From assembly GCA_902526075.1 (NCBI GenBank), contig CABZJM010000001.1, forward strand, positions 66,829-130,828: a DNA stretch of 64,000 nucleotides, read 5' to 3'. Each line of letters opens with the position of its first letter. Position 1 is the first letter of the stretch. The DNA is from an uncultured Bacteroidota bacterium. GTDB lineage: Bacteria; Bacteroidota; Bacteroidia; Flavobacteriales; Flavobacteriaceae. The translations under genes and the position numbers were made by a program. Positions 1-12,840 of this stretch are shown piece after piece. Under the pieces are notes generated by a model that was given only the letters and a program-made list of their open reading frames with translations, ran no database searches and was not told where the DNA came from.

Positions 1-251
1 TTATTGGGAATCCCAAAGACTATTATAGAATTTATTTTGTTGTCAATTAGTTCATTGCAAAATTCTATTGCGCGATCAATTGAATATCTAAATTGTCCCT
101 GCATGGATTTAATAGGTTCTTTTATGTTTTGGCCTTCGGTTATAAATACTGGACATATCAGGTCTGCAGCATTAATGCTTACATCTTCAATCATATTCCT
201 CAGAATTTTATTATACCTAAGTCTTCTCAATCTATTTACTGGAAATTTCAT
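1..251 (-). CDS. hemB: Porphobilinogen synthase, N-terminal part (cut by window edge)
   Basis: Only the first 83 codons are inside the window. The translation opens MKFPVNRLRRLRYNKILRNM and continues with DLICPVFITEG, the family signature at the start of delta-aminolevulinate dehydratase, which condenses two 5-aminolevulinates to porphobilinogen. The catalytic lysines and metal site lie beyond the edge. The ATG overlaps the TGA of the upstream hemC/hemD gene (ATGA, 4 nt), so it is translationally coupled and is the third gene of a hemA-hemCD-hemB operon. Identity is secure despite truncation; no other family shares this opening. Confidence 0.9.
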   Translation of the reverse strand, partial: MKFPVNRLRRLRYNKILRNMIEDVSINAADLICPVFITEGQNIKEPIKSMQGQFRYSIDRAIEFCNELIDNKINSIIVFGIPN

Positions 252-1846
252 TTTTGATAGAAATATTTAATTAATGATTCTGAAATACCTTCATATGATT
301 GCATCTTTGAGGTTAGCATACAATCAAAACCTTTACTATTGACATAGTCAGTTGTAGTCTTTCCAATACTTATTATTTTAGTGTACTTAGGATTATAAAA
401 TTGAACAAATGAGTCAAATGCTGATGGACTGGTAAAAACAGTATATGTATCTTTGGTTTCAATAAGTTTTAATAATTCTTTGTTTACTTTTCTCTTTAAA
501 TTAGTCTCGTAAACATTCACTCTCTCTACTGCGCAAAAGCCTTGAAGTTTTATTTTAAAATCATCTTTCGCAATTTTACCTTGAATTAGAAGGGTTTTTT
601 TTCCGTTCAGCAACTTATTATTTTTGAGTTCTTCAGCCATAATATTAGAATAGTTTCTTTTTGAAATATAAGCTGACTCATATCCATATTCATTTAAAGT
701 TTGGTTTGTTTTATTCCCAATGCAAATAAATTTTATTGCTGAAGAAACTTTAACCCTATTGAAAAAATTCTTTATTCCATTTTTTGAGGTAAAAATTACA
801 TAATCATAGTTATCAATATTATTCACAGTAAAATCTAGTGGACTAATCTCGATTAACGGAAAATGATGGGTAACTATGTCACTTTTGGATAGTTCTTTAA
901 AACCACTAATATCACCCTCATTAGTCAAAATTATTTGAACCGGTATTTTGTCAGAAATTTTAGACATTAATGTTTTTGCTAGTTTCACCCCAATGTCAAT
1001 TTGATTGCCGATTTCCTTAGTCATTTTTCCATAAATGTATTTTTTCTCTTTTGCGTCAAATACTTTGCCCTCAATCACAATCTTATCACCATTTAATATG
1101 CATAATACAGCATCAGGGGATGAGCATCCTCCACCTACGGTTTTTAAAAATTTTCTTTCTTCATTAATACAAATTTGAGTTGATTTGTCTAGTATTTTTT
1201 TTAGAATTGAAATTGTTTTTTTATCATCCTTTCTGAATTCAACAGCTAAAGCTCCCTGGCCTGCTGCAGGAATTATTTCGTCTGATTTGAAATATTTGGA
1301 AATTCTTTGTTCTAAACCTAATCTTTTCAAACCAGCAGCAGCAAGTATAATTCCTTCAAGCTTACCATCGTCAAGTTTTTTAATTCTAGTCTCCACATTT
1401 CCTCTTATACTTTTTACCTCAACCCCATTGTAAATTTTTTGAATTTGCTCCTTTCTTCTTATTGATGAGGTTCCGATTAATTTTATATCATGTATTTTTT
1501 TATACTTAAGTCCTTTTTTTAAAACAAGCACATCCATGGGTTCTTCTCTTTTAGTTACAGTAAAAGAGCTAAGATTATTATTTCCTTCAGATGGCAAATC
1601 TTTTAAACTGTGAATAGCAAAATCAATAGTTTTTTTTTCTAATTCATTTTGAATTTCAGAAACAAAAAAACCTTTATCTAAAATTTTAGTCAGGTCTTTA
1701 TTCAATAAAATATCACCTTTAGTTTTGATTTTTTTTATGATAAATTCCGTTGAAGGGTTTTTTTCTTTTAATTTTTTGATAACATAATTTGTTTGGGTAA
1801 TCGCAAGTTTACTCGACCTGGTACCAACAATTAACTTATTAATCAT
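248..1846 (-). CDS. hemC: Fused hydroxymethylbilane synthase / uroporphyrinogen-III synthase
   Basis: A 532-residue protein about as long as HemC (about 300) plus HemD (about 220). Residues 1-300 are hydroxymethylbilane synthase: opening KLIVGTRSSKLAITQT, the AIHSLKDLP motif, GTSSIRR, and Cys241 in GGGCSSPDAV, the expected attachment point of the dipyrromethane cofactor. From about residue 305 it reads as uroporphyrinogen-III synthase, with VIFTSKNGIKNFF, FTSPSAFDSF and ISIGKTTTDYV. Together the domains make and close the tetrapyrrole to uroporphyrinogen III. The reading frame is continuous with no stop or internal start at the junction. It overlaps hemA by 8 nt and hemB by 4 nt. Fusions exist in some bacteria; many flavobacteria keep the genes separate (recalled). 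Confidence 0.92.
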   Translation of the reverse strand: MINKLIVGTRSSKLAITQTNYVIKKLKEKNPSTEFIIKKIKTKGDILLNKDLTKILDKGFFVSEIQNELEKKTIDFAIHSLKDLPSEGNNNLSSFTVTKREEPMDVLVLKKGLKYKKIHDIKLIGTSSIRRKEQIQKIYNGVEVKSIRGNVETRIKKLDDGKLEGIILAAAGLKRLGLEQRISKYFKSDEIIPAAGQGALAVEFRKDDKKTISILKKILDKSTQICINEERKFLKTVGGGCSSPDAVLCILNGDKIVIEGKVFDAKEKKYIYGKMTKEIGNQIDIGVKLAKTLMSKISDKIPVQIILTNEGDISGFKELSKSDIVTHHFPLIEISPLDFTVNNIDNYDYVIFTSKNGIKNFFNRVKVSSAIKFICIGNKTNQTLNEYGYESAYISKRNYSNIMAEELKNNKLLNGKKTLLIQGKIAKDDFKIKLQGFCAVERVNVYETNLKRKVNKELLKLIETKDTYTVFTSPSAFDSFVQFYNPKYTKIISIGKTTTDYVNSKGFDCMLTSKMQSYEGISESLIKYFYQK

Positions 1847-3062
1847 CAGTGAAAATTTTATTTATAATTTTTAAAGCATCAGTGTTCTTCCCGTTCTCAC
1901 TGACACTAATGATCTTTTTTACTAATCTGTCTGAAAACTTATCATAGATTTCCTGTATTTCTGTATTATTATTTTCCAAATTTTCGGCATCAGACATTAA
2001 GTTTTTAATTTCCTTTTTTATAGAAATTATACTTGGTCTTAATTCTCTAGAATCTAACCATTGGTTATATTCAATGACATATTTTTCAATAAGCTTTTTA
2101 GCTTTTTTAACCTCTGAGATTCTTTTGTTGTAATTTTCGTTTACCTTATCCTTTAGTTTATCAAGATCAACCAATTCTACATTACTGTAGTTGTTATTTA
2201 TGATAATATTTCTCGGAACAGATAAATCAACCAATATTATTTTTTTATTTCTTTTCGAATCAATATGCAAAAGGTCCTTATCAGTTAATAGGGGTTTTTT
2301 GGATGAGGTGCTAAAAATAATAATGTCAACAGATTCTAATTTGCTTTTCCATTCGGTGAATTTTACCAGATTTAGGTCAAACTTTTCAACTAGGTGAGTG
2401 GTGTTGGCTTCAGTTCTATTTGTTATAGATATTTTTCCAAAATTTTTTGAGAAAAGTTGTTTTATAGAAAGCTTTGATGTTCTACCTGCCCCAACACATA
2501 ATATCGATAATTCTTCTGAGTTATTAATATTTCCTATTTGGTCAATGGCAGCTGAGCTCACAGAAATTCCACCTTTGTCAATTTCGGTATTAGTTCTTAT
2601 AAATTTACTGGCCTCTAACGACTTTTGAATCATTCTTTCAATGGCTGGGCTTAACATTTTGTTGTCTTTGCAAATATTGTAAGAAGTTTTTATTTGATCA
2701 ACAATTTGGAATTCACCAATTATCATCGATTCAAGTCCACTAGATAGTCTGAACAGGTGTTCTGAAATTTCAAAAGACCCCTGTTTTTTCTTAATATATG
2801 GTCTCAATCCGTCATTAAACTTTTTAAGCTTGCTTAGAGTCATAATAACTGAGTGGAATGTTTTATTATGGCTGGCTTGATTTTCAGCTGTTTCAAAATA
2901 AAGCTCTGTTCTATTACATGTAGAGATGATAAAGAGTCCTTTCAGAGTTACTCTATTATTAATTTCATTAAATATTATTCGATATTCCTCTGTATATATG
3001 TAAAAGAGTTCGCGGATTTTTACCGGTGCTATTTTATAATTTAAGCTTATTAATCCTAACAT
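1839..3062 (-). CDS. hemA: Glutamyl-tRNA reductase
   Basis: Catalyses NADPH-dependent reduction of glutamyl-tRNA to glutamate-1-semialdehyde, the first committed step of C5 haem synthesis. From the ATG at 3062 it opens MLGLISLNYKIAPVKIRE, and Cys49 in IISTCNRTELY is the catalytic thiol. A Rossmann segment (ILCVGAGRTSKL) and a C-terminal dimerisation helix follow; total 407 residues, normal for the family. A longer TTG-started version (from 3095) would contain the -7 promoter element inside its own coding sequence, so the ATG at 3062 is preferred. First gene of the hem operon. Upstream is a 44-nt element shared with the hmuR-like gene. Confidence 0.94.
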   Translation of the reverse strand: MLGLISLNYKIAPVKIRELFYIYTEEYRIIFNEINNRVTLKGLFIISTCNRTELYFETAENQASHNKTFHSVIMTLSKLKKFNDGLRPYIKKKQGSFEISEHLFRLSSGLESMIIGEFQIVDQIKTSYNICKDNKMLSPAIERMIQKSLEASKFIRTNTEIDKGGISVSSAAIDQIGNINNSEELSILCVGAGRTSKLSIKQLFSKNFGKISITNRTEANTTHLVEKFDLNLVKFTEWKSKLESVDIIIFSTSSKKPLLTDKDLLHIDSKRNKKIILVDLSVPRNIIINNNYSNVELVDLDKLKDKVNENYNKRISEVKKAKKLIEKYVIEYNQWLDSRELRPSIISIKKEIKNLMSDAENLENNNTEIQEIYDKFSDRLVKKIISVSENGKNTDALKIINKIFTDD

Positions 3063-3080: not shown

Positions 3081-3088
3081 CAAAGATA
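3081..3088 (-). promoter_or_regulatory. -7 promoter element of hemA
   Basis: Minus strand reads TATCTTTG, a perfect match to the Bacteroidota -7 consensus TAnnTTTG, 18 nt before the hemA ATG. I see no good TTG (-33) element at the expected distance, so activation from the upstream 44-nt element is plausible. Confidence 0.6.
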
Positions 3089-3110
3089 AATGCAAATTTT
3101 ATATTTAAAG

Positions 3111-3154
3111 TAACGCTAGAAGTTCTTTTATTTTGTTATGAGTTCAATCTGTTA
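3111..3154 (-). promoter_or_regulatory. 44-nt upstream element, copy 1 (hemA)
   Basis: Matches 12674-12717 at 35 of 44 positions without gaps. On the plus strand the blocks AGTTCTTTTA and AGTTCAATCTGTTA are invariant (24 nt) and separated by 10 variable bases; AGTTC recurs 20 nt apart, two helical turns. It ends 48 nt before the hemA ATG, the same orientation and almost the same distance as copy 2 before the hmuR-like gene. Probably a regulator binding site for haem genes (inference). Confidence 0.55.
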
Positions 3155-3238
3155 ATTGATTTTGATTCTAAATAATATATCGTTTACAGATATATTTGTA
3201 ACACACACTAAATTTTTTTCTTTTTTTCTTAATTTTTA

Positions 3239-3255
3239 TTTAGATTGAATCTAAA
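3239..3255. promoter_or_regulatory. Perfect 17-nt palindrome, probable metal-responsive operator
   Basis: TTTAGATTGAATCTAAA: two 8-nt arms around a central G. It overlaps a possible TTG -33 element (3245-3247) and sits 8 nt upstream of the -7 element of the DUF4856-imelysin-TonB operon, the position of a repressor site. TTAG-type half-sites are known for DtxR/MntR-family iron or manganese regulators; assignment to that family is inference. Confidence 0.5.
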
Positions 3256-3263
3256 CTAATGTA

Positions 3264-3271
3264 TATATTTG
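3264..3271 (+). promoter_or_regulatory. -7 promoter element of the iron-uptake operon
   Basis: TATATTTG matches TAnnTTTG. It lies 29 nt before the start codon of the DUF4856 gene, with a TTG 16 nt upstream inside the palindrome. Confidence 0.6.
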
Positions 3272-3300
3272 CACTTGAAATTTAAAAATTTAATCAAATT

Positions 3301-4530
3301 ATGAAAAACTTAATATACAAGTCATTGATTTTATCATTGGCAATTTTTGTTTATTCTTGTGACAATGATGATAACGATAATGATAATGGAGGCAACAATA
3401 TAGTCGCTCCAACCTCATATGAGTTTACAAGAAATGGAGAGTCAACTGTAAGTTTCTCTGGTCAAACAACAAGACTTACCCAAGCTGAAGAATTATATGC
3501 TGCACTGAATTCTAGTGAAGCTACTGAAAGTGGTTTAGACTTAATGTTCAATGGAGATGCTAATGGTTCAGCTGGTTTTGCGGATGCTTCTTTAAATGGT
3601 ACATCAAAAATTATTGGCAGTAAGACAGCAGCATCCACTTTAGCTGGTAGTGCCACTACAAAGCAAATGTTTGACGATATGATCGCAGATTATGCTAACA
3701 ATGTAGTACCAAACTGGGGAAGCGATGCAGGACCAGGTCAACCAGGTGCAATTTCTACACCTGATGGTGCTTCAACTTATCACCTAAACGCTGAAGGTCA
3801 AGAACTTGATCAGTTATTCTTTAAAGGATTAATAGGTGCATTTACTCTAGACCAAATTGTGAACAACTACATTCACCCAAATCAGTTAGATTCTGGAACT
3901 AGAATTGAGGACAACGACAACGATGTTCTTTCAGGTGACAATAATTACACTGATATGGAGCATAAGTGGGACGAAGGTTTTGGATACTTATATGGTCTTG
4001 ATGGTGATAATTTAGCTAATGCTGGAGCTAGTCCTTCTGGGTCTGGTAGTTTATTAATGAAATATTTCAAGAAAATAAATGATGAAGGTGGATACGAACC
4101 CGGAATCGGTCAAGTTGTATATGATGCATTCATTATGGGTAGAACAGCTATTGTCAATAAAGATTACGATCTTAGAGATCAGCAAGCTGCCATTATAAAG
4201 GTTGAATTATCCAAAGTTATTGGTTATTATGCAATTCACTACATGAATGACTACGTAGCCAAGTTAGAAGCTGGCAATATAGCTAAGGCACACCATTCTC
4301 TTTCAGAGGGATGGGGATTCCTTTTGAGTTTACAGTTTACTAACAATGGAAATGATGAGCCATTTATGGACAAAGCTACTGTGGAGTACTTTTTAGCCAA
4401 CTATATGGGTGATTTCCATAACATGAACCCAGCTGTGTTGACTGCACCTGCATCTTCACAGTATCCTGGAATGATTGCTTTAGTAAAACAAGCATTCGAG
4501 GCTAATGGTGTTACTTTAAACATTGACTAA
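3301..4530 (+). CDS. DUF4856 family surface lipoprotein
   Basis: A 409-residue lipoprotein. Residues 1-20 form a signal peptide ending in a lipobox (FVYSC). The cysteine is followed by a run of Asp/Asn (DNDDNDNDNGG), the acidic lipoprotein-export signal that sends Bacteroidota lipoproteins to the cell surface. The mature part has features I associate with DUF4856, such as YTDMEHKWDEGFGYLYG and AHHSLSEGWGF. The biochemical function is not established. It is first in an operon with an imelysin, an HTTM protein, a TonB receptor and a DCC protein, behind a palindromic operator, so a role in iron acquisition at the outer membrane is likely (inference). Confidence 0.75.
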   Translation: MKNLIYKSLILSLAIFVYSCDNDDNDNDNGGNNIVAPTSYEFTRNGESTVSFSGQTTRLTQAEELYAALNSSEATESGLDLMFNGDANGSAGFADASLNGTSKIIGSKTAASTLAGSATTKQMFDDMIADYANNVVPNWGSDAGPGQPGAISTPDGASTYHLNAEGQELDQLFFKGLIGAFTLDQIVNNYIHPNQLDSGTRIEDNDNDVLSGDNNYTDMEHKWDEGFGYLYGLDGDNLANAGASPSGSGSLLMKYFKKINDEGGYEPGIGQVVYDAFIMGRTAIVNKDYDLRDQQAAIIKVELSKVIGYYAIHYMNDYVAKLEAGNIAKAHHSLSEGWGFLLSLQFTNNGNDEPFMDKATVEYFLANYMGDFHNMNPAVLTAPASSQYPGMIALVKQAFEANGVTLNID

Positions 4531-4540
4531 AAACTTGATG

Positions 4541-4573
4541 AATTGGTATATGATTTACCAATTTATTTTTTTT
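4541..4573 (+). terminator. Intrinsic terminator or attenuator inside the iron operon
   Basis: Perfect 8-bp stem AATTGGTA / TACCAATT with a 7-nt loop, followed by eight T (4566-4573). It lies 10 nt after the DUF4856 stop codon, so it probably lowers transcription of the downstream imelysin and receptor genes relative to DUF4856. Confidence 0.65.
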
Positions 4574-4587
4574 GTTTTCTAAATTTT

Positions 4588-4623
4588 GAGAGGGAAGTAG
4601 TGGTCAACACTATTTCCCCTCTC
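4588..4623 (+). other. Second, GC-richer hairpin upstream of the imelysin gene
   Basis: GAGAGGGAAGTAGTG (4588-4602) pairs with CACTATTTCCCCTCTC (4608-4623) with a 5-nt loop and one bulge. No T-tract follows. It may protect the 5' end of a processed imelysin mRNA or be part of an attenuator with the preceding hairpin. No -7 element is visible between here and 4659. Confidence 0.5.
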
Positions 4624-4658
4624 TGTTTAGCTTAATATTTACTTATATTTACATTATC

Positions 4659-5777
4659 ATGAAAAAATTTAAACTATTTTTTTTATTTACCTTTTTTATT
4701 ATCCTGTCATGTTCAGAAAATGAAAATAATTCATCAACTGATGGTTATGACAGGTCATTACTACTTAGTAATGTAGTTGATAATATAATGATTCCAGCAC
4801 ATCAAAATTTTGATAATGAATTAGAGCTATTCGAATCAGCTGTAAATTCATTTGGTCAGGATAGATCCATATCAAATTTAGAAATGATGCAAAATCAATT
4901 TATAGAAGCCTACAAAGCATGGCAACATATCGAAATGTTTAATATTGGTTACGCTGAAGAGATATTTTACGCATCAAAAATGAATATTTATCCAGCTAAT
5001 ATCACAAGAATAACGCAAAACATTAATTCTGACAATGTAGATTTGGATGGTAATTCAAACCAGTACTCAGCCCAAGGTTTTCCTGCAGTTGATTACTTAT
5101 TGTGTGGATTAGGAGAAACAAACGATCAAATTCTAAATGTATATATAACTGATAATAACATGACTTTTGGATATTTAAACCTTTTGGTTTCAAAGATGGT
5201 AAATAATACAGATTCCGTTATTAGTTATTGGAATACAAACAAAGAGACTTTTATAAACTCGACAGCAAACACTTCAACATCAAGTTTAAATAAGCTTGCT
5301 AATGATTTTGTTTACTATTATGAAAAGGGTCTTAGGGCTAATAAAATTGGAATACCTGCAGGCGTGTGGTCAGGTCAACTACCACAAAATGTTGAAGCTT
5401 ACTATAAATCCGATATTTCAAAAATGTTAGCTGTTGAAGCATTACAAGCAAGTGCAGATTTTTTTAATGGTATTCACTTTGGAGAATCTCAAACAAATGG
5501 TGAAGGTCTTTATGATTACTTGGCTTATTTAGACGACACAAATTACTCGGATTCCTCAATGTTCCTTGGACTTCAAGATGATATTGTCGAATCATTTGAT
5601 AACTCGATGGTTAAAATCAATTTGTTAAATGACAACTTTGCTTTACAAGTTCAATCAGATAATATGAAAATGCTTGAAGCTTATGATGCGATTCAACAAG
5701 GGGTGGTAAGACTTAAAACAAATATGTTATCCATTCTTGGTATTGCTGTCGATTATTATGATGCGGACGGAGACTAG
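4659..5777 (+). CDS. Imelysin family lipoprotein (iron-regulated)
   Basis: A 372-residue lipoprotein: signal peptide with lipobox ILSC at about residues 15-18, then an acidic linker (SENENN). The body is helical and imelysin-like: a helix pair around residues 60-85 containing YKAWQHIEMF, and GFPAVDYLLCG near residue 143, where imelysin peptidase-like proteins often have this GFPALDYLL form rather than a GxHxxE motif. Imelysin-like proteins are periplasmic or surface proteins tied to iron uptake (IrpA-like); catalysis is not proven. It is separated from DUF4856 by two hairpins and followed 11 nt later by the HTTM gene. Confidence 0.85.
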   Translation: MKKFKLFFLFTFFIILSCSENENNSSTDGYDRSLLLSNVVDNIMIPAHQNFDNELELFESAVNSFGQDRSISNLEMMQNQFIEAYKAWQHIEMFNIGYAEEIFYASKMNIYPANITRITQNINSDNVDLDGNSNQYSAQGFPAVDYLLCGLGETNDQILNVYITDNNMTFGYLNLLVSKMVNNTDSVISYWNTNKETFINSTANTSTSSLNKLANDFVYYYEKGLRANKIGIPAGVWSGQLPQNVEAYYKSDISKMLAVEALQASADFFNGIHFGESQTNGEGLYDYLAYLDDTNYSDSSMFLGLQDDIVESFDNSMVKINLLNDNFALQVQSDNMKMLEAYDAIQQGVVRLKTNMLSILGIAVDYYDADGD

Positions 5778-5788
5778 AGAAAGATAAG

Positions 5789-7147
5789 ATGATAAATAAT
5801 TTTTCGAGGTATTTTAAACAAGAATCTCTACCTCATTCACTTGCATTATACAGAATTGGTTTTGGTATTCTTATAATGTTTAGCCTGGCTAGATTTGCGC
5901 TAAATGGATGGATTGAGTCTTTATATTTAGAACCAGACTTTCATTTTTCTTATTATGGATTTTCATGGGTAAAACCAATTGGCGTTTATACTTATCTAAT
6001 TTTTATGATATGCTTTTTTTCAGCACTATTTGTTACAATTGGATATAAATACAGGATTTCCATAATATTACTTTTTTTAAGTTTTACTTATATCGAATTG
6101 ATGGATAAGACAACTTATTTAAATCATTATTATCTAGTAAGCTGCATCTCCTTTTTAATGATCTTCTTACCCTGTTCAACCTATTTTGCTGTAGACAGTG
6201 GAAAGAATATTAAAATTCCTCAATGGACGATTGACTCATTAAAATTTTTAATAATAATAGTGTATATATATGCTGGTCTTGCAAAAATTAATTCTGATTG
6301 GTTAATTCATGCCCAGCCTTTAAAAATCTGGTTAAGAGCAAAATATACAATCCCTATAATTGGTGAAACTTTGCTGCAAAAAAACTTTTCATACTATTTA
6401 TTTAGTTGGGGTGGAATGCTGTATGATTGCATCATTCCTTTTTTACTCATTTTCAAAAAAACTCGAAACTTTGCGTTTTTTATGGTAATAGTATTTCATG
6501 TAATGACAAGAATTTTATTTCCACCGATTGGAATGTTCCCTTACATAATGATATTTAGCTGTATAATATTTTTTGACAGTGGTTTACATAAAAAAATTCT
6601 CGATTTTATCAGATCTATTTTTAGATTAAAAATTACAAATAATGAAAAATTTATTTCTGACCCTATGAGCTTCATGAGAAAAAAGGTTGTTATTCCAATA
6701 TTATTAGTATTTTTTATCGTTCAGATTTTATCTCCATTAAGAAGTATTTTATATCCTGGTGAATTATTTTGGACTGAACAAGGATATAGATTTTCTTGGA
6801 GGGTTATGCTTATTGAGAAAGCAGGTTATACAACCTTCAAGGTTGTAGATAATAGTACAAATAAATTTCAGCTAATAGACAATATGGAATTTCTTACTCC
6901 TTTTCAAGAAAAGCAGATGAGTTTTCAACCTGATATGATTTTGGAGTATGCACATTATCTTGGAGATTCATTTAAAAAAAGAGGTTTTAATGATGTCTCT
7001 GTTTATGCTGATAGTTATGTAACCCTTAATGGTAGACCGAGTAAAAGATTTATTGATCCTGAAGTTGATTTATATAAACAAAAAAATGATTTAAAACATA
7101 AAATATGGATTATTCCAATAAAAGATGAAATCAAAAGTCTACTTTAA
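5789..7147 (+). CDS. HTTM-domain membrane protein, vitamin K-dependent carboxylase-like
   Basis: A 452-residue integral membrane protein. Residues 15-290 hold several hydrophobic helices of the HTTM type, including DKTTYLNHYYLVS, and a segment reading YIYAGLAKINSDWL. After a last helix (about 303-320), the soluble C-terminal part carries YPGELFWTEQGYRFSWRVML, a motif seen in bacterial relatives of vitamin K-dependent gamma-glutamyl carboxylase. The true bacterial substrate is unknown. It is locked between imelysin and a TonB receptor, overlapping the receptor start by 23 nt, which suggests coupling and a shared job in metal uptake. Family call is solid, activity uncertain. Confidence 0.8.
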   Translation: MINNFSRYFKQESLPHSLALYRIGFGILIMFSLARFALNGWIESLYLEPDFHFSYYGFSWVKPIGVYTYLIFMICFFSALFVTIGYKYRISIILLFLSFTYIELMDKTTYLNHYYLVSCISFLMIFLPCSTYFAVDSGKNIKIPQWTIDSLKFLIIIVYIYAGLAKINSDWLIHAQPLKIWLRAKYTIPIIGETLLQKNFSYYLFSWGGMLYDCIIPFLLIFKKTRNFAFFMVIVFHVMTRILFPPIGMFPYIMIFSCIIFFDSGLHKKILDFIRSIFRLKITNNEKFISDPMSFMRKKVVIPILLVFFIVQILSPLRSILYPGELFWTEQGYRFSWRVMLIEKAGYTTFKVVDNSTNKFQLIDNMEFLTPFQEKQMSFQPDMILEYAHYLGDSFKKRGFNDVSVYADSYVTLNGRPSKRFIDPEVDLYKQKNDLKHKIWIIPIKDEIKSLL

Positions 7148-9539
7148 AATATTAATTATTTTTCTGTTCTTTTCGGAGACAATTATATCTCAGCAAATTT
7201 TTTCAGGGTATATAATTGATGAAGAGACCAATGAAGCCATCGGTGGAGTAAAAATATACTCTAAATCTGATGGTCTTTTGGAAATTTCAGATGAAAAAGG
7301 GTTTTATTCATTTGAAGCTTATAAGAATGAATTAATCAGTTTTTATTTGGAAAATTATGAGTTAAATGAAAAAAAAATAGATCAAAATGAGACCATATAT
7401 CTCAAACCACTTGTGGAAAATTTAGATGAAATTGAAATTATTGTTAGAAATGAAAAGATTTTTTCACTACAGAGATTAAATGCAGTTGAAGGTACTAGTA
7501 TATTCGAAGGAAAGAAAAGTGAAGTTGTATTAGTTGATCAAAGTATGGCAAACTTAGCGAGTAATAATTCGAGACAGATTTACTCACAGGTGGCTGGTTT
7601 AAATATTTTTCAAAATGATGATGCGGGTTTACAACTAAACATTGGCGGTAGAGGCTTGGACCCAAATAGAACATCAAATTTCAATACTAGACAAAATGGA
7701 TATGATATAAGCGCTGATGTTTTGGGGTATCCTGAAAGCTACTACACTCCACCTTCTGAGGGTCTGAGTAATATACAAATCGTAAGGGGTGCAGCTTCTT
7801 TGCAATATGGTACACAGTTTGGTGGATTAGTTAATTTTGTGATGAAAGAGCCAAAAAAAAATCAAAGACAAGAAATTATAACAAGAAACTCTTTCGGTAG
7901 TAATAATTTATTCACAAATTTTACAAGTTATAAAGGTTCTAAAAATAAATTTAGATATTATGCATATTTTAATTTTAAGCAAGGAGATGGTTTCAGAGAT
8001 AACTCTTATTTTAATTCGAAAAACTTTTTTATTAAAACTATTTATGATATTAATCAGGAATCAAAATTATCATTTGACCTAACCTATTTTACATACCTTA
8101 CACAACAAGCAGGAGGATTAAACGATCAAATGTTTTCAAACAATCCTTTTCAAAGTAATAGAGCGAGAAATTGGTTCAATGTTGATTGGCTATTATATAA
8201 TTTAAGATATGATCATGAATTTGATATAAAAAAATCATTATCTGTTAGTTTCTTTGGACTGAACGCAGTAAGAAATGCACTTGGCTTTAGAGTAAACAGA
8301 GTTGATCAAGTTGATAGTAATGGCCCACGTGACTTGATAAGTGGAGATTTTAATAATTTTGGCTTGGAGGCTAAGTTTTTAAATAATTATAAGCTATTTA
8401 ACAAAGAATCAATTTTTGTATTAGGTTCAAAATTATATTTTGCTACTAATTATAGTAGACAAGGTCCAGGATCAGACTTTTCTGATGCAGATTTTGATTT
8501 TTATAATGATAGTTTTCCTGCATATTCAAACCAATCAAACTACAAGTATCCAAATAAGAATATTTCCTTTTTCGCCGAAAATATAATTAATATCAATGAT
8601 GGGCTTACAATAACACCAGGATTCAGATTAGAATATATAAATACTCAAGCTCGAGGTCAATTTGAGAGAATCGTTCTCGATGCAGCACAAAATGTTATTC
8701 AGCATGATACTATTTTGGAAAATAGAAAGAATGAAAGATTGTTTTTGTTGACCGGAGTTGGTGTTTCTCAAAAACTAGAAAATGATGTAGAATTGTATGC
8801 TAATTACTCCCAGAATTATCGTTCTGTCACCTTTGCTGACATTAGTACTGTTAACCCAGCATACGCTATAGACCCCGAGATATCAGATGAAGAAGGCTAT
8901 ACTATAGACTTGGGTTTAAGGGGTAACTATGATAATTTATTTAGTTTTGATGCTAACATCTTTCACCTTGCTTACAATAACAGAATTGGCTTTGTTCAAA
9001 GGTTATTTGATGATGGTAATGTTAAGGCATATAGAACAAACACTGGTGATGCTAATATTTATGGTTTGGAAAGTTTACTGGATATTAATCTAAAAAAAGT
9101 TTTACAGCTTAATTCTGCATACATATTTAATACATTTTTGAACCTTTCAATCATCGAATCCAAATACATAAAATCAGATGAACCTGGGGTAAAGGGTAAG
9201 GAGGTAGAATTTGTACCTAAATATAACATCAAGTATGGAATCAAATTTGGATATAAAAACTTCACATCATACCTTCAATATTCATATTTAGCAAGTCAGT
9301 TCTCAGATTCTTCAAATTCAGTAGAGTCAAATTTAAGTGGTGTAATAGGCCAAATTCCAGCTTATGATATACTAGACATTTCAGTAAATTATAAATTGGG
9401 TAAAATTAAGCTTGAAACGGGTGTAAATAATATTTTAAATACTTCTTATTTCACTAGAAGGGCTACAGGATATCCAGGACCTGGAATAATTCCCTCACCA
9501 CCGAGAAACTATTATCTAACTTTGCAATATAAATTTTAG
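7125..9539 (+). CDS. TonB-dependent outer-membrane receptor (FecA-like)
   Basis: An 804-residue protein: signal peptide (1-21), an N-terminal carboxypeptidase-regulatory-like beta-sandwich (about 25-95, IFSGYIIDEETNEAIGGVKIYS), a plug domain (about 120-240, with NIQIVRGAASLQYG and FGGLVNFVMK), then a long beta-barrel ending in YYLTLQYKF with a terminal aromatic. Plug and barrel resemble ferric-citrate/siderophore receptors. The substrate cannot be read from sequence, but the imelysin and HTTM partners point to iron. It starts inside the end of the HTTM gene and is followed after 1 nt by the DCC gene. Confidence 0.88.
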   Translation: MKSKVYFKILIIFLFFSETIISQQIFSGYIIDEETNEAIGGVKIYSKSDGLLEISDEKGFYSFEAYKNELISFYLENYELNEKKIDQNETIYLKPLVENLDEIEIIVRNEKIFSLQRLNAVEGTSIFEGKKSEVVLVDQSMANLASNNSRQIYSQVAGLNIFQNDDAGLQLNIGGRGLDPNRTSNFNTRQNGYDISADVLGYPESYYTPPSEGLSNIQIVRGAASLQYGTQFGGLVNFVMKEPKKNQRQEIITRNSFGSNNLFTNFTSYKGSKNKFRYYAYFNFKQGDGFRDNSYFNSKNFFIKTIYDINQESKLSFDLTYFTYLTQQAGGLNDQMFSNNPFQSNRARNWFNVDWLLYNLRYDHEFDIKKSLSVSFFGLNAVRNALGFRVNRVDQVDSNGPRDLISGDFNNFGLEAKFLNNYKLFNKESIFVLGSKLYFATNYSRQGPGSDFSDADFDFYNDSFPAYSNQSNYKYPNKNISFFAENIININDGLTITPGFRLEYINTQARGQFERIVLDAAQNVIQHDTILENRKNERLFLLTGVGVSQKLENDVELYANYSQNYRSVTFADISTVNPAYAIDPEISDEEGYTIDLGLRGNYDNLFSFDANIFHLAYNNRIGFVQRLFDDGNVKAYRTNTGDANIYGLESLLDINLKKVLQLNSAYIFNTFLNLSIIESKYIKSDEPGVKGKEVEFVPKYNIKYGIKFGYKNFTSYLQYSYLASQFSDSSNSVESNLSGVIGQIPAYDILDISVNYKLGKIKLETGVNNILNTSYFTRRATGYPGPGIIPSPPRNYYLTLQYKF

Positions 9540-9540
9540 A

Positions 9541-9930
9541 ATGGAAAAAATAATAATTGTTTTTGATGGTTTTTGTGTTTTATGTAATAATTATGTAAGG
9601 TGGGTATCAAAAAGAAACCCTAACAAAAACATTTATTTTACCAATTTTGATAGTGATTATATAAAAAATAATTACCCAAAGTTAAATTTAGGTGATACCG
9701 TATTCATCATAACAGAAGGTGATCAAATTTTGGAACGGTCTCAGGCAATCAAGTATTGTTTAAAACATGTCAAGCTTAACTATTTTTTGAAAACTATAAT
9801 TAAGTTATCACCAAACTTTTTATTAGATATATTTTACCGACTTATAGCGAAGAATAGATATTTTTTATTTGGTAAACTGGACGTTTGTTCCATCCCTGAT
9901 GATGTAAATCAAGAAAACATCTTGTTTTAA
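9541..9930 (+). CDS. DCC family thiol-disulfide oxidoreductase-like protein (DUF393)
   Basis: A 129-residue cytoplasmic protein with the DUF393 N-terminal motif as DGFCVLC (residues 9-15), giving a CxxC redox pair, and YRLIAKNRYFLFG near residues 100-112, typical of the family. DCC proteins are annotated as thiol-disulfide oxidoreductases but their substrates are unknown. It is the last gene of the iron operon, and HTTM and DCC domains often neighbour each other or are fused (recalled), which fits this operon. Its end overlaps the end of the convergent hmuY-like gene by 4 nt. Confidence 0.8.
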   Translation: MEKIIIVFDGFCVLCNNYVRWVSKRNPNKNIYFTNFDSDYIKNNYPKLNLGDTVFIITEGDQILERSQAIKYCLKHVKLNYFLKTIIKLSPNFLLDIFYRLIAKNRYFLFGKLDVCSIPDDVNQENILF

Positions 9931-10550
9931 TCAAATGTTGTAGCTCCTTGGTTTGGTTGATACACATAATTAAATGTGTAATACCTGCTTTGATCAGTAA
10001 AGGCATCAGGACTTTCAGGAGCACCTAAATAATAACTTAAAATTTCTGCTTTTGCATACCTGTTGTCATGAGTTCTAAATACCAAGATTTTTCCAGGGGT
10101 TGGACTAATTAGAAAAGTTGGGGAACCTGAGTAAGTATACCACCCATTTCCACTTCCAGTTGGAATAGCATAGCCACTCTCCGAATCTTGTGTTAATAAG
10201 GAGGTGTCAACAATTTGCATTTCATCCATTGTTCCCTCAAAAATATAGGCAGCTGCATTACCATTTCTTTCTGGCTCATCATCTGTTCCTAACGAAACAC
10301 CTCCATTAACAATAATTGATGTTCCTCTGAATCCGATATCCCAATTAGTTTCACTTTCCGTTTGAACTCCATCTTCAAAATTAAATTTTGTGAATGGTCC
10401 AGAAATTGATTGACCCTGACTTCCTTCTTGTGGCGCATAAAGGTCTTCAACAGTGATGCTAACAGAGTCAATTCCAATACTATTATCATCTTCACAGCTA
10501 AAAGAGAACAATAATATAATACAAGTAGTAAAAAATTTGATTTTTTTCAT
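9927..10550 (-). CDS. HmuY-like haem-binding lipoprotein
   Basis: A 207-residue lipoprotein with lipobox FSFSC and acidic EDD right after the cysteine, indicating surface export. The mature domain reads WDIGFRGTSIIVNGG (about 82-96) and ILVFRTHDNRYAKAEILSYY followed by YYTFNYVYQPN, the characteristic strands of HmuY haemophores. Porphyromonas HmuY ligates haem with two His; here the mature chain has a single His (in RTHDN), so ligation must differ, perhaps through Met as in some Bacteroides relatives. It is transcribed with the TonB receptor 5 nt upstream, the usual hmuR-hmuY arrangement. Confidence 0.82.
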   Translation of the reverse strand: MKKIKFFTTCIILLFSFSCEDDNSIGIDSVSITVEDLYAPQEGSQGQSISGPFTKFNFEDGVQTESETNWDIGFRGTSIIVNGGVSLGTDDEPERNGNAAAYIFEGTMDEMQIVDTSLLTQDSESGYAIPTGSGNGWYTYSGSPTFLISPTPGKILVFRTHDNRYAKAEILSYYLGAPESPDAFTDQSRYYTFNYVYQPNQGATTFD

Positions 10551-10555
10551 AATTG

Positions 10556-12628
10556 CTAATTTATATTATAACCAACTCGGCAAAAGTAAATTCTTCCACT
10601 TAAATTTGAAATATTTTCTGAATCTAAATAATTAAAAATATTTTCTATTCCTGCCGACAAAGTTAATTTCGAATTTATAATCTTGTTTATATTTACATTT
10701 CCAGTAAGATGTCCATTTACAAACTTGTCATATTTATCTAAATAGTTGTTCGAATTACTATCATACAAACCATATTTACTTCTGTATTTAAATCTAAGGT
10801 TTGTGCTGAAATTTTTGTCAAGATTATTGTAATTAATTTTAATTATACCCATATGTCTTGATCTGTTATATAAACCAAAATAGTCTTTTTTATTCAGTCT
10901 GAAAGCAGGAGATGTAGGTGTTAACCTTGCATATACTTCACCATTTTCAAATGCTTTTCTAGCGTCTAGGTCATACGCATATAGTAGCTGATATCCAACA
11001 GAAAAGCTAAAATAGTTATCAGCTTTATATTTTGTATTAATATCAAAACCAAATGTTGAAACATTATTTACATTATAGTATGAAAATACATTTTGACCAT
11101 TTGTTTTATTTGCAATTACACGATAATCAATTAGGTTTTTGGCTGAATTACTAAAAAGATTGGTGTATAAACTAATTTTCTCATCTAAATCTCTGTCATA
11201 TCCAATATTTACTCCAAAAGAACTTTCTGGACTTAGTGGATCTTCAAATTCATCAATAGGAACAATAATATTTGCAATTTGACCCTCACTAATCAGCTGA
11301 TTTAAGACATCATCAACTACGTTATAGCCAATTACGGTGTAGCCAACTGTTGAGTTGGAGAAATTGAAATATAGTTGTCTAAAGTCAGGTGTTTTATAAC
11401 CATATCCTGTGGAAATCTTTATAGATTCGTTATTTTGTATTTTGTAAATACCTGAGAATTTTGGACTAACCTGTGATTTATATTCTTTGTATTTGTCAAA
11501 TCTTCCACCTAATATTAAGTTAACCTTTTCATTCGGATTATAATCGTATTGAAAATAAATAAATGGTGAGTTTTGTTTTGGTTCTATTTCAAAATATGTC
11601 CTGTTTAAAGTTTCATATTCATTACCCAAACCAAAGACAAATTCCTTTTTATTACTAATCTTGTAAACTGTCTTAATTTCGGGTTTTAAAAATATCTGAT
11701 CATAAAAACTTTCACTGAATCTATTACCTTGTTCATCATCTAAAAATTCATCTCCAAAATAAGATGTAAAATATACTTCAAAATCAGTTCTAATTTTGTC
11801 TGCTTGGTGACTTATTATAAAATTTATATTGTCCTCAGATGTAAACGTTTCTCCACTTAATGAGTTGGGGGCTATATTATCAATTAATTGAGTATAGTAT
11901 CTCGCATTAATTTTAATTTTTAAACTTTCACCTAAATTTTGTCCTAACTTAATTTGAATAGTATTCGTTTTGAATTTATTCACCGTATTTAACCCATCAC
12001 CTTCAATTAAATCATATCCATCACTAGAATAATTATTAAAAAAAACTGAGCTATAAAAATTATTCTTTTTGTAGCTAAACAGTACATTGTTATCAGAAGA
12101 ATTGTGTGTCTCGTAAGAAGATGAAAAATTACCTTTTAATCCGGTTTTAGGTTTTTCCGTAATTATATTTACAACACCAGCAAATGCATTATTTCCGTAA
12201 AGACTTGATGATGGCCCTCGAACAATTTCTATTTGCTTTATATTTCCAACTGAAATTCTATTTAAGTCTAAAGTGCCAGCTGTTCTGCCAATCAGAGGTT
12301 GATTATCAATAAGAATTAAAGTATATTCTGAATCAAGGCCTTGCATCTGGATTCCTTCACCACCACCAAAATCAGAAACAGTTATTAAACCTAGTTCTTC
12401 GTTAATAACGTCAGATAACCTAGTTGCGTTTATTTTTTCTATTTCATCTTTTTTTATGATAGATGCATTAAGTGGAAGTGATGAAAGAACTCTTTCTGTT
12501 TTTGTCGCAGTTATGATAACTTCGTCAAGATTATTATTTGTGGAATCAATTTTAAAGTTAGATGGTTGACCCAAGACAAATTTTGAGAAAAGAATTAAAA
12601 TAAAATAAATAGTCGATTTCTTAATCAA
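10556..12628 (-). CDS. TonB-dependent receptor, HmuR-like haem receptor
   Basis: A 690-residue receptor with signal peptide, TonB-box-like region near NNNLDEVIITATKTERVLSS, plug domain (IKQIEIVRGPSSSLYGNNAFAGVVNIIT, given here as consecutive short motifs IEIVRGPSSSLYGNNAF and GVVNIIT) and a beta-barrel to the C-terminus. Coupling to the HmuY-like gene points to haem or haemoprotein uptake. The start is TTG at 12628: an in-frame TAG lies 6 nt upstream and there is no Met in the signal peptide to use instead. An upstream 44-nt element is shared with hemA. Confidence 0.82.
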   Translation of the reverse strand: MIKKSTIYFILILFSKFVLGQPSNFKIDSTNNNLDEVIITATKTERVLSSLPLNASIIKKDEIEKINATRLSDVINEELGLITVSDFGGGEGIQMQGLDSEYTLILIDNQPLIGRTAGTLDLNRISVGNIKQIEIVRGPSSSLYGNNAFAGVVNIITEKPKTGLKGNFSSSYETHNSSDNNVLFSYKKNNFYSSVFFNNYSSDGYDLIEGDGLNTVNKFKTNTIQIKLGQNLGESLKIKINARYYTQLIDNIAPNSLSGETFTSEDNINFIISHQADKIRTDFEVYFTSYFGDEFLDDEQGNRFSESFYDQIFLKPEIKTVYKISNKKEFVFGLGNEYETLNRTYFEIEPKQNSPFIYFQYDYNPNEKVNLILGGRFDKYKEYKSQVSPKFSGIYKIQNNESIKISTGYGYKTPDFRQLYFNFSNSTVGYTVIGYNVVDDVLNQLISEGQIANIIVPIDEFEDPLSPESSFGVNIGYDRDLDEKISLYTNLFSNSAKNLIDYRVIANKTNGQNVFSYYNVNNVSTFGFDINTKYKADNYFSFSVGYQLLYAYDLDARKAFENGEVYARLTPTSPAFRLNKKDYFGLYNRSRHMGIIKINYNNLDKNFSTNLRFKYRSKYGLYDSNSNNYLDKYDKFVNGHLTGNVNINKIINSKLTLSAGIENIFNYLDSENISNLSGRIYFCRVGYNIN

Positions 12629-12673
12629 AATCTAAATTTTAAATAAATATAATTACCATAATTTAATTAATAA

Positions 12674-12717
12674 TAACGATTAAAGTTCTTTTATATAGTA
12701 TAAAGTTCAATCTGTTA
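12674..12717 (-). promoter_or_regulatory. 44-nt upstream element, copy 2 (hmuR-like gene)
   Basis: Ungapped match to 3111-3154 at 35 of 44 positions, with the invariant blocks AGTTCTTTTA and AGTTCAATCTGTTA at identical spacing. It ends 45 nt before the TTG start of the receptor gene. Between element and gene I see only an imperfect -7 (TATATTTA on the minus strand). Confidence 0.55.
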
Positions 12718-12767
12718 TTTAATGGAGGAAGGCGATAAAGTATCGATAAAAGTTGGATAAAAAAAAG

Positions 12768-12840
12768 TGACCTGGCTGGGGCTCGAACCCAGGACCCTCT
12801 CCTTAAAAGGGAGATGCTCTACCAACTGAGCTACCAGGTC
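12768..12840 (-). tRNA. tRNA-Lys (anticodon TTT)
   Basis: 73 nt on the minus strand. The acceptor stem GACCTGG pairs with CCAGGTC, discriminator A. D-arm GCTCAGTTGGTAGAGC; anticodon loop CTTTTAA gives TTT (Lys AAA/AAG); T-arm CTGGGTTCGAGCCCCAG. CCA is not encoded. A run of eight T follows the 3' end, consistent with termination. Confidence 0.96.

Follow-up and report, generated by a model that had tools for sequence, protein, structure and literature searches.

A probable tandem operator common to haem-synthesis and haem-uptake promoters in a marine genus of Flavobacteriaceae and its probable AraC-family regulator

Main finding

In a 64,000-nucleotide stretch from the draft genome of an uncultured Flavobacteriaceae bacterium (GCA_902526075.1, contig CABZJM010000001.1, positions 66,829 to 130,828; hereafter the window), a haem-synthesis operon headed by hemA and a haem-uptake operon headed by an hmuR-like receptor gene carry the same short element ahead of their first genes. 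This element is most probably the tandem operator of an AraC-family activator whose gene is linked to hemA in relatives; we infer its binding, its activating role and its signal from sequence comparison. That a single regulator would control both the synthesis and the uptake of haem is well supported, and the predicted gene set forms a new regulon under a regulator of an established class. The distribution of the element further suggests that this regulon has been rewired in nature, the operator having passed from hemA to the uptake genes within a single marine genus.

The element in the window

The two copies, at 3111-3154 and 12674-12717, agree at 35 of 44 positions without gaps, a count from an earlier sequence-only reading that proved exact, and they form the only same-strand pair reaching at least 35/44 within the first 20 kb (none in each of 8 dinucleotide shuffles). 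The same reading had described identical blocks at a fixed spacing, and AGTTCTTTTA-N10-AGTTCAATCTGTTA indeed occurs exactly twice in the window at 0 mismatches, against a mean of 0.00 at up to 3 mismatches in 100 shuffles. Nor is the motif scattered over many unrelated places, which that reading had offered as grounds for abandoning it: the 1,240,392-base draft genome (62% complete) holds no third copy within 3 mismatches, and a control search with the pattern reversed matches nothing there. Looser matches of the pattern in 5 family genomes, at 3 mismatches, were rejected as chance-like; the reversed pattern also matches 2/199 genomes.

Both copies face the same way and end, as had been noted, 48 nt before the hemA ATG (3062) and 45 nt before the receptor TTG (12628). 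The AGTTC repeats reported 20 nt apart read, on the coding (minus) strand of both copies, as GAACT-N15-GAACT with starts 20 bp apart, and each copy runs along that strand in the order GAACT, GAACT 20 bp on, CGTTA, 22 nt, a -7-like box and a short leader. The element is a little longer than first described: CGTTA and a T-rich tail, its most conserved part, lie at or past the low-coordinate edge, and the matches of a profile built from the genus (R1) span 3102-3153 and 12665-12716. Identity between the two copies fades at the operator edges.

3102 to 3154, minus strand: hemA operator; distal GAACT at 3145-3141, proximal GAACT at 3125-3121, continuing to CGTTA (3125-3111 in all); R1 54.1 bits (training-set site)
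12665 to 12717, minus strand: hmuR operator; distal GAACT at 12708-12704, proximal GAACT at 12688-12684, continuing to CGTTA (12688-12674 in all); R1 53.7 bits (training-set site)

Just upstream of the hemA operator, at about 3155-3195 on the minus strand, lies a conserved GTAAACGATATATTATTTAGAAT-like block that is also seen in L013-L016, L021 and L022. It contains another CG motif and half a box for the iron regulator Fur (14/19 at 3155-3173), and is possibly a further site.

Conservation within the genus

The conservation in relatives on which the sequence-only reading had staked its case was followed through 21 genomes of the genus (own included), of which 11 have hemA and 17 the receptor, whole or partial. 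The proximal half-site is kept in 11/11 readable hemA promoters and 16/16 readable hmuR promoters, the latter exclusive of three loci cut by contig ends (L087, L088, L097); four of these hmuR genes (L084, L085, L086, L089) have a different upstream neighbour, with no tRNA-Lys alongside. The GAAC of the distal half-site is intact in 9/10 distinct hemA sites and 13/16 distinct hmuR sites. When 26 periods were compared with 60 shuffles per set, period 20 came out best in the genus hmuR sites (0.651, largest shuffle 0.537) and also in the genus hemA sites (0.594, against a mean of 0.42 over the shuffles). Scanned for exact matches, the genome collection yielded 3 contigs, 2 at hemA and 1 at the same receptor, which are not independent of the 21-genome set (L003 equals contig G055:C5 in length).

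Genus sites were located by patterns requiring the proximal GAAC/AAAC and CGTT (L083 was added by hand), and R1 was built from 22 of the 26 distinct sites after identical or similar rows had been removed by hand. Over 22 genomes, 14 of them of the genus, it gave 19 matches at E <1e-6; 18 are hemA or hmuR promoters, and the remaining one, new, precedes hmuY in G200. A similar site is present in G217, and neither belonged to the R1 training set. At L072:4774-4809 R1 has a third match in the own genome (22.6 bits, E 1e-4). It falls within the crtI frame and was rejected; the crtI stretches of L158-L163 and L165 contain no R1 match.

A family-wide form between hemA and a divergent AraC gene

Outside the genus, ACCnnAAnCGATACTAAAAGTTCTTTTAGCGTTATTTTTTT recurs in 36 distinct Flavobacteriaceae spacers that separate hemA from a divergent AraC-family gene (36 distinct sites from 41 loci, some genomes being represented twice). 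In 36/36 of them C, CG, C and A-N-CGTT stand at fixed positions. The sites were found by best match to a 16-base string, CGTT earning a bonus. This search made no use of the distal C and CG, which are invariant in 36/36. The half-sites are 21 bp apart here, and period 21 is the best of 26 in the 36 sites (0.490, against 0.471 for the largest shuffle). Left out of the set were L040 and L043, of the same family and lacking CGTT, and L023, L025, L027, L036, L041, L056 and L057, from outside the family; the hemA signature was not found in L034.

A family profile (R2) was built from 31 of the 36 distinct sites, none from this genus, similar rows again being dropped by hand. Its sole match at E<=0.01 in the own genome is the hemA site (E 0.00134), which is lost under stricter filters. 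In 26 of 30 other family genomes the best R2 match lies 106-249 bp from the AraC gene, and 10 of those 26 contributed no row to the profile. With R1 and R2, hmuR and hmuY copies of the operator were found in this genus only. A family-wide hmuR regulon was considered and rejected: beyond hemA-AraC spacers there are only 5 weak R2 matches (E 0.008-0.009), although R2 is insensitive to the genus form.

Spacing to the predicted promoters

The flavobacterial -7 consensus is given in PMC9723704 as TAnnTTTG. Both boxes predicted in the window fit TAnnTTT(G/A), and the operator ends 22 nt before each.

3081 to 3088, minus strand: TATCTTTG, the -7 box predicted for hemA, 22 nt downstream of CGTTA
12644 to 12651, minus strand: TATATTTA, the -7 box predicted for hmuR, 22 nt downstream of CGTTA, with the last base off consensus

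Across the genus, TAnnTTTG stands 22 nt after CGTT(A/G) in 10/10 distinct hemA sites, and an exact TAnnTTTG stands at 21-22 nt in 10/16 distinct hmuR sites, the other 6 being without an exact match. Of the 41 family hemA-AraC loci, 40 have 21 nt between CGTT(A/G) and TAnnTTTG, and the remaining one has 22 nt. Placement close to the promoter, beside the -33/-35 region, thus characterizes 41/41 family loci and 20/26 distinct genus sites. As the genus form combines a 20 bp repeat with 22 nt to the -7 box and the family form 21 with 21, the distal half-site keeps its distance from the promoter.

The candidate regulator

The own genome encodes a single ortholog of the hemA-linked AraC protein (G000:C1:54634-55476; 50% identity, E 3.7e-88), outside the window. 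Its gene has the same orientation as the hem operon and lies 3' of it, about 13 kb from the hemA end, placed behind a DUF6607 gene and ahead of carotenoid genes. The product matches PF12833 (HTH_18) at 66.5 bits. None of the Pfam families matches its N-terminal half, and solved structures retrieved by sequence extend at most from residue 136 to about residue 287. The AraC gene is divergent from hemA in the family loci read, and in three genus genomes it lies 3' of hmuY.

In G000, G199 and G207 the gene immediately before AraC is the DUF6607 gene (L072:6123-7908, minus strand), for which a role related to haem or iron is possible.

Across 79 genomes of the order, site and AraC gene occur together in 13, the site alone in 1 (G223, E 5.6e-4), the AraC gene alone in 13 and neither in 52, a co-occurrence with a one-sided Fisher p of 4.5e-7 that ignores relatedness. 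The own genome is counted here as AraC-only, its site having been lost to the stricter filters. Of the 13 genomes with both, 11 have the site within about 200 bp of the AraC gene, and in G127 and G244 the two are about 1.7 kb apart.

Fur-type boxes and iron

A palindrome closely resembling TTTAGAATnATTCTAAA is present in 40/41 family hemA-AraC spacers (at least 13/16 matches; 2% in shuffles). It matches the predicted Fur box of Riemerella anatipestifer, a 19-bp palindrome, ATTTAGAATTATTCTAAAT; Fur bound promoter fragments carrying this box, and the abstract of the same paper prints a different sequence as Fur box (PMC5609570). The distance between palindrome and operator is nearly constant in 37/41 family loci, the palindrome being a separate site about 120 bp from the operator. 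This spacing (for example in L038, L100 and L111) is tighter than two independent promoters seem to need, and looping or a shared architecture is possible.

In the window a Fur-type palindrome stands near hemA, as a neighbour and not as part of the operator.

3238 to 3256, strand not assigned: Fur-type palindrome ATTTAGATTGAATCTAAAC, 15/19 to the R. anatipestifer Fur box

It precedes a DUF4856-imelysin-HTTM-FecA-DCC1 operon that is divergent from hemA. The window contains 8 Fur-type matches of at least 15/19 against 1-7 in 20 shuffles, a count barely above chance and uninformative, and the hmuR promoter in the window has no convincing Fur box (best 14/19). In the genus, L072, L158 and L159 have an 18/19 Fur match in the spacer that separates the AraC-side genes from a transporter operon, and this match could serve the transporter instead. 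It is not present in L161 or L162, and there is no convincing match between hmuY and AraC in L160, L163 and L165. A chain from Fur to AraC to hemA is therefore likely in the family at large, as read from these spacers, and less certain in this genus.

The sequence-only reading had called the element a haem-responsive control site. A control site common to synthesis and uptake operons it very probably is; haem as the signal is another matter, since the support for iron, acting by way of Fur, is at least as good: in most of the family spacers read, the AraC gene sits behind a Fur-type box.

Proposed mechanism and alternatives

Two subunits of the regulator would bind the two direct half-sites, which share a C-N6-C(G) core where intact and lie 20 bp apart in the genus and 21 bp apart in the rest of the family. 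The half-site on the downstream side would abut or overlap the -33 region and help RNA polymerase to start at the TAnnTTTG promoter, as AraC does at araI1-I2. The ancestral regulator probably acted on hemA only; hmuR may have joined it in this genus, as may hmuY in some of its members, so that synthesis and uptake would be switched together. Low iron probably enters the circuit through the Fur-type box before the AraC gene in most of the family, and the signal would be iron, acting by way of Fur, with haem or a porphyrin as a possible addition that the regulator would sense through an invariant Cys-Pro and a His.

Several observations weigh against an AraC operator or narrow its reach. The genus and family forms differ (upstream box GAACT in one and GTTCT in the other, spacing 20 and 21), and because of this their homology rests on architecture plus one weak cross-match (E 0.00134). 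The distal half-site is degenerate in some sites, GAAC being missing from 1/10 hemA and 3/16 hmuR sites and the second C from 5/16 hmuR sites; the invariance of CGTT is partly built in, as the proximal CGTT belonged to the strings by which sites were found. The period-20 signal of the genus hemA sites (0.594) falls below the largest shuffle (0.624), and period 27 in the genus hmuR sites also rises above its shuffles (0.559 against 0.522). The family spacer L040 (G004), excluded from the 36, has an AraC gene and AGAGTT instead of CGTT; 4/31 family genomes (G008, G023, G025, G033) lack an R2 site, and 3 of these 4 have the AraC gene; in the order R2 sees no site in 13/26 AraC-bearing genomes, own genome included. 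The AraC gene was not detected in 8/21 genus genomes: in six of these, all but G206 and G208, the contig stops short of where the gene would be expected, in the case of G203 on the premise that its genes are ordered as in G204. Finally, a partial Fur match (14/19) abuts the hemA operator at 3155-3173. The L040 spacer, the degenerate distal half-sites and this partial match slightly lower our confidence.

That the same AraC protein binds as described and represses, with haem as co-repressor, is unlikely but deserves serious thought, since end-product repression of hemA would be sensible and the proximal half-site abuts the -33 region. The site nevertheless leaves the -7 box uncovered, stopping 21-22 nt short of it on the upstream side, and AraC proteins placed upstream in this manner are usually activators. 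Some other regulator, for example Fur or one of the CRP/FNR type, with the AraC gene a mere neighbour, is a still less probable owner of the element. Such a view could draw on the Fur-type palindrome of 40/41 family spacers, on the partial match abutting the hemA operator and on the report that hmuR is Fur-regulated in R. anatipestifer (PMC5609570); yet the best Fur match inside the operators is 13/19, the Fur-type box of the family is a site of its own some 120 bp off, the operator is a direct repeat and no palindrome, and site and AraC gene co-occur.

The 35/44 identity, together with the confinement of hmuR and hmuY copies to this genus (R1, R2), would also fit the recent copying of a single promoter segment with no regulation in common. 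We regard this as very improbable: the similarity fades at the operator edges, and both copies are kept across the genus while their flanks differ, for the four hmuR genes mentioned above even in the upstream neighbour. An RNA leader element, which closeness to the start codons might recall, is hardly credible, because the element lies upstream of the predicted -7 boxes and hence would be untranscribed, and in an Rfam scan of the window only a tRNA reaches the gathering threshold. The tandem AraC operator, which has the two direct half-sites about 20-21 bp apart typical of AraC/XylS-type sites, is accordingly the interpretation we prefer.

The target operons

Domain matches bear out the earlier assignment of the two targets as haem-synthesis and haem-uptake operons.

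1839 to 3062, minus strand: hemA, glutamyl-tRNA reductase, first gene of the operon; TIGR01035 283.6 bits, cut-off 209.55
248 to 1846, minus strand: hemC-hemD fusion; PF01379, PF03900, PF02602
10556 to 12628, minus strand: TonB-dependent receptor, hmuR-like; Plug and beta-barrel above cut-off
9927 to 10550, minus strand: hmuY-like haem-binding lipoprotein gene; PF14064 28.5 bits, cut-off 27

The hem run extends beyond the window as hemB-hemL-hemE-hemN-hemH-protoporphyrinogen oxidase (PPO), hemE scoring slightly below its family cut-off. The receptor falls below the cut-off of the haem-receptor model TIGR01785 and ties with a B12-receptor model; its role in haem is therefore assigned from the neighbouring hmuY.

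The hmuR operator is preceded, at a distance of about 50 nt, by a tRNA-Lys(TTT) gene (12767-12840), as in 12/16 readable hmuR loci of the genus, and read-through from the tRNA into hmuR is therefore conceivable.

Genus members without the hem block

hemA is unmatched in 10/21 genus genomes, and hemE in 9/21, all within those ten. The nine lacking both (G200, G203, G204, G206, G207, G208, G211, G212, G217) are drafts, 56-84% complete, and incompleteness could explain some of the absences. In G200, G204, G207, G211, G212 and G217, however, the hem block is absent from continuous sequence across its place (stretches L158-L161, L163 and L165). All six keep the operator before hmuR, the distal half being degenerate in G200 and G217. 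The gene order in G204, G211 and G212 is hmuR-hmuY-AraC-carotenoid genes; in G200 and G217 the operator also precedes hmuY, and in G200 it does so beside a DUF4856 gene, elsewhere a neighbour of hemA. The simplest reading of these arrangements is that operator and regulator were retained for haem uptake once haem synthesis was lost. Genus members without the hem block are probable haem auxotrophs. As the operator persists where haem synthesis seems lost, such strains may depend on haem made by others.

Possible haem sensing by the regulator

Cys-Pro is known as a haem-regulatory motif. In 49 distinct AraC ortholog rows a single Cys-Pro is invariant just ahead of the DNA-binding domain, as is a Phe-His pair in the N-terminal half. 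Among 17 other AraC-type proteins of the complete relative G014 (18 of its 21 HTH_18 loci were readable, 3 being without a readable frame), none has Cys-Pro at that position and one has it elsewhere. It is conceivable, if doubtful, that with its invariant Cys-Pro and His the hemA-linked AraC protein itself senses haem or a porphyrin, would thereby set haem synthesis and uptake jointly, and has had its whole switch kept for uptake alone where synthesis was lost.

Significance and relation to known systems

Flavobacteriaceae are abundant in the sea and include pathogens of fish and poultry, and we found no account of the control of their haem synthesis in the open-access literature. The present analysis names one regulator, its operator and a likely chain from Fur to AraC to hemA. 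The sequence-only reading had called the site undescribed; a search of the open-access literature likewise found no description of an AraC regulator of hemA in Bacteroidota, and an earlier description is possible in subscription papers or regulon databases, which lay outside its coverage.

Haem-responsive control is exerted elsewhere by systems such as HrrSA (PMC7337898), Irr and HbrL. These belong to regulator families unrelated to the AraC type, and the likeness lies in the transcriptional coupling of haem supply. Nearer in phylogeny, the hfpR/hfpY haem-uptake operon of Flavobacterium psychrophilum comprises a receptor and an HmuY-like protein and is induced under iron scarcity (PMC9331221). 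The pairing of receptor and HmuY-like protein is the same as here; by contrast, that paper discusses Fur, and the words AraC and hemA do not occur in its main text. The R. anatipestifer Fur box (PMC5609570) resembles the present case in its iron and haem genes, its family and the occurrence of the same palindrome in the AraC-hemA spacer, and differs from it in that the Fur box is palindromic whereas the element described here is a tandem repeat.

In architecture the element recalls the operators of AraC/XylS proteins. At araI1-I2, bound by AraC, and at other tandem operators of this class, two direct half-sites are spaced by about two helical turns, with the downstream half-site beside the upstream hexamer of the promoter. 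The half-site layout is the same here and the putative regulator has a C-terminal AraC-type helix-turn-helix (PF12833/HTH_18); what sets the system apart is that its predicted targets are haem genes and that the N-terminal half of its regulator matches no Pfam family.

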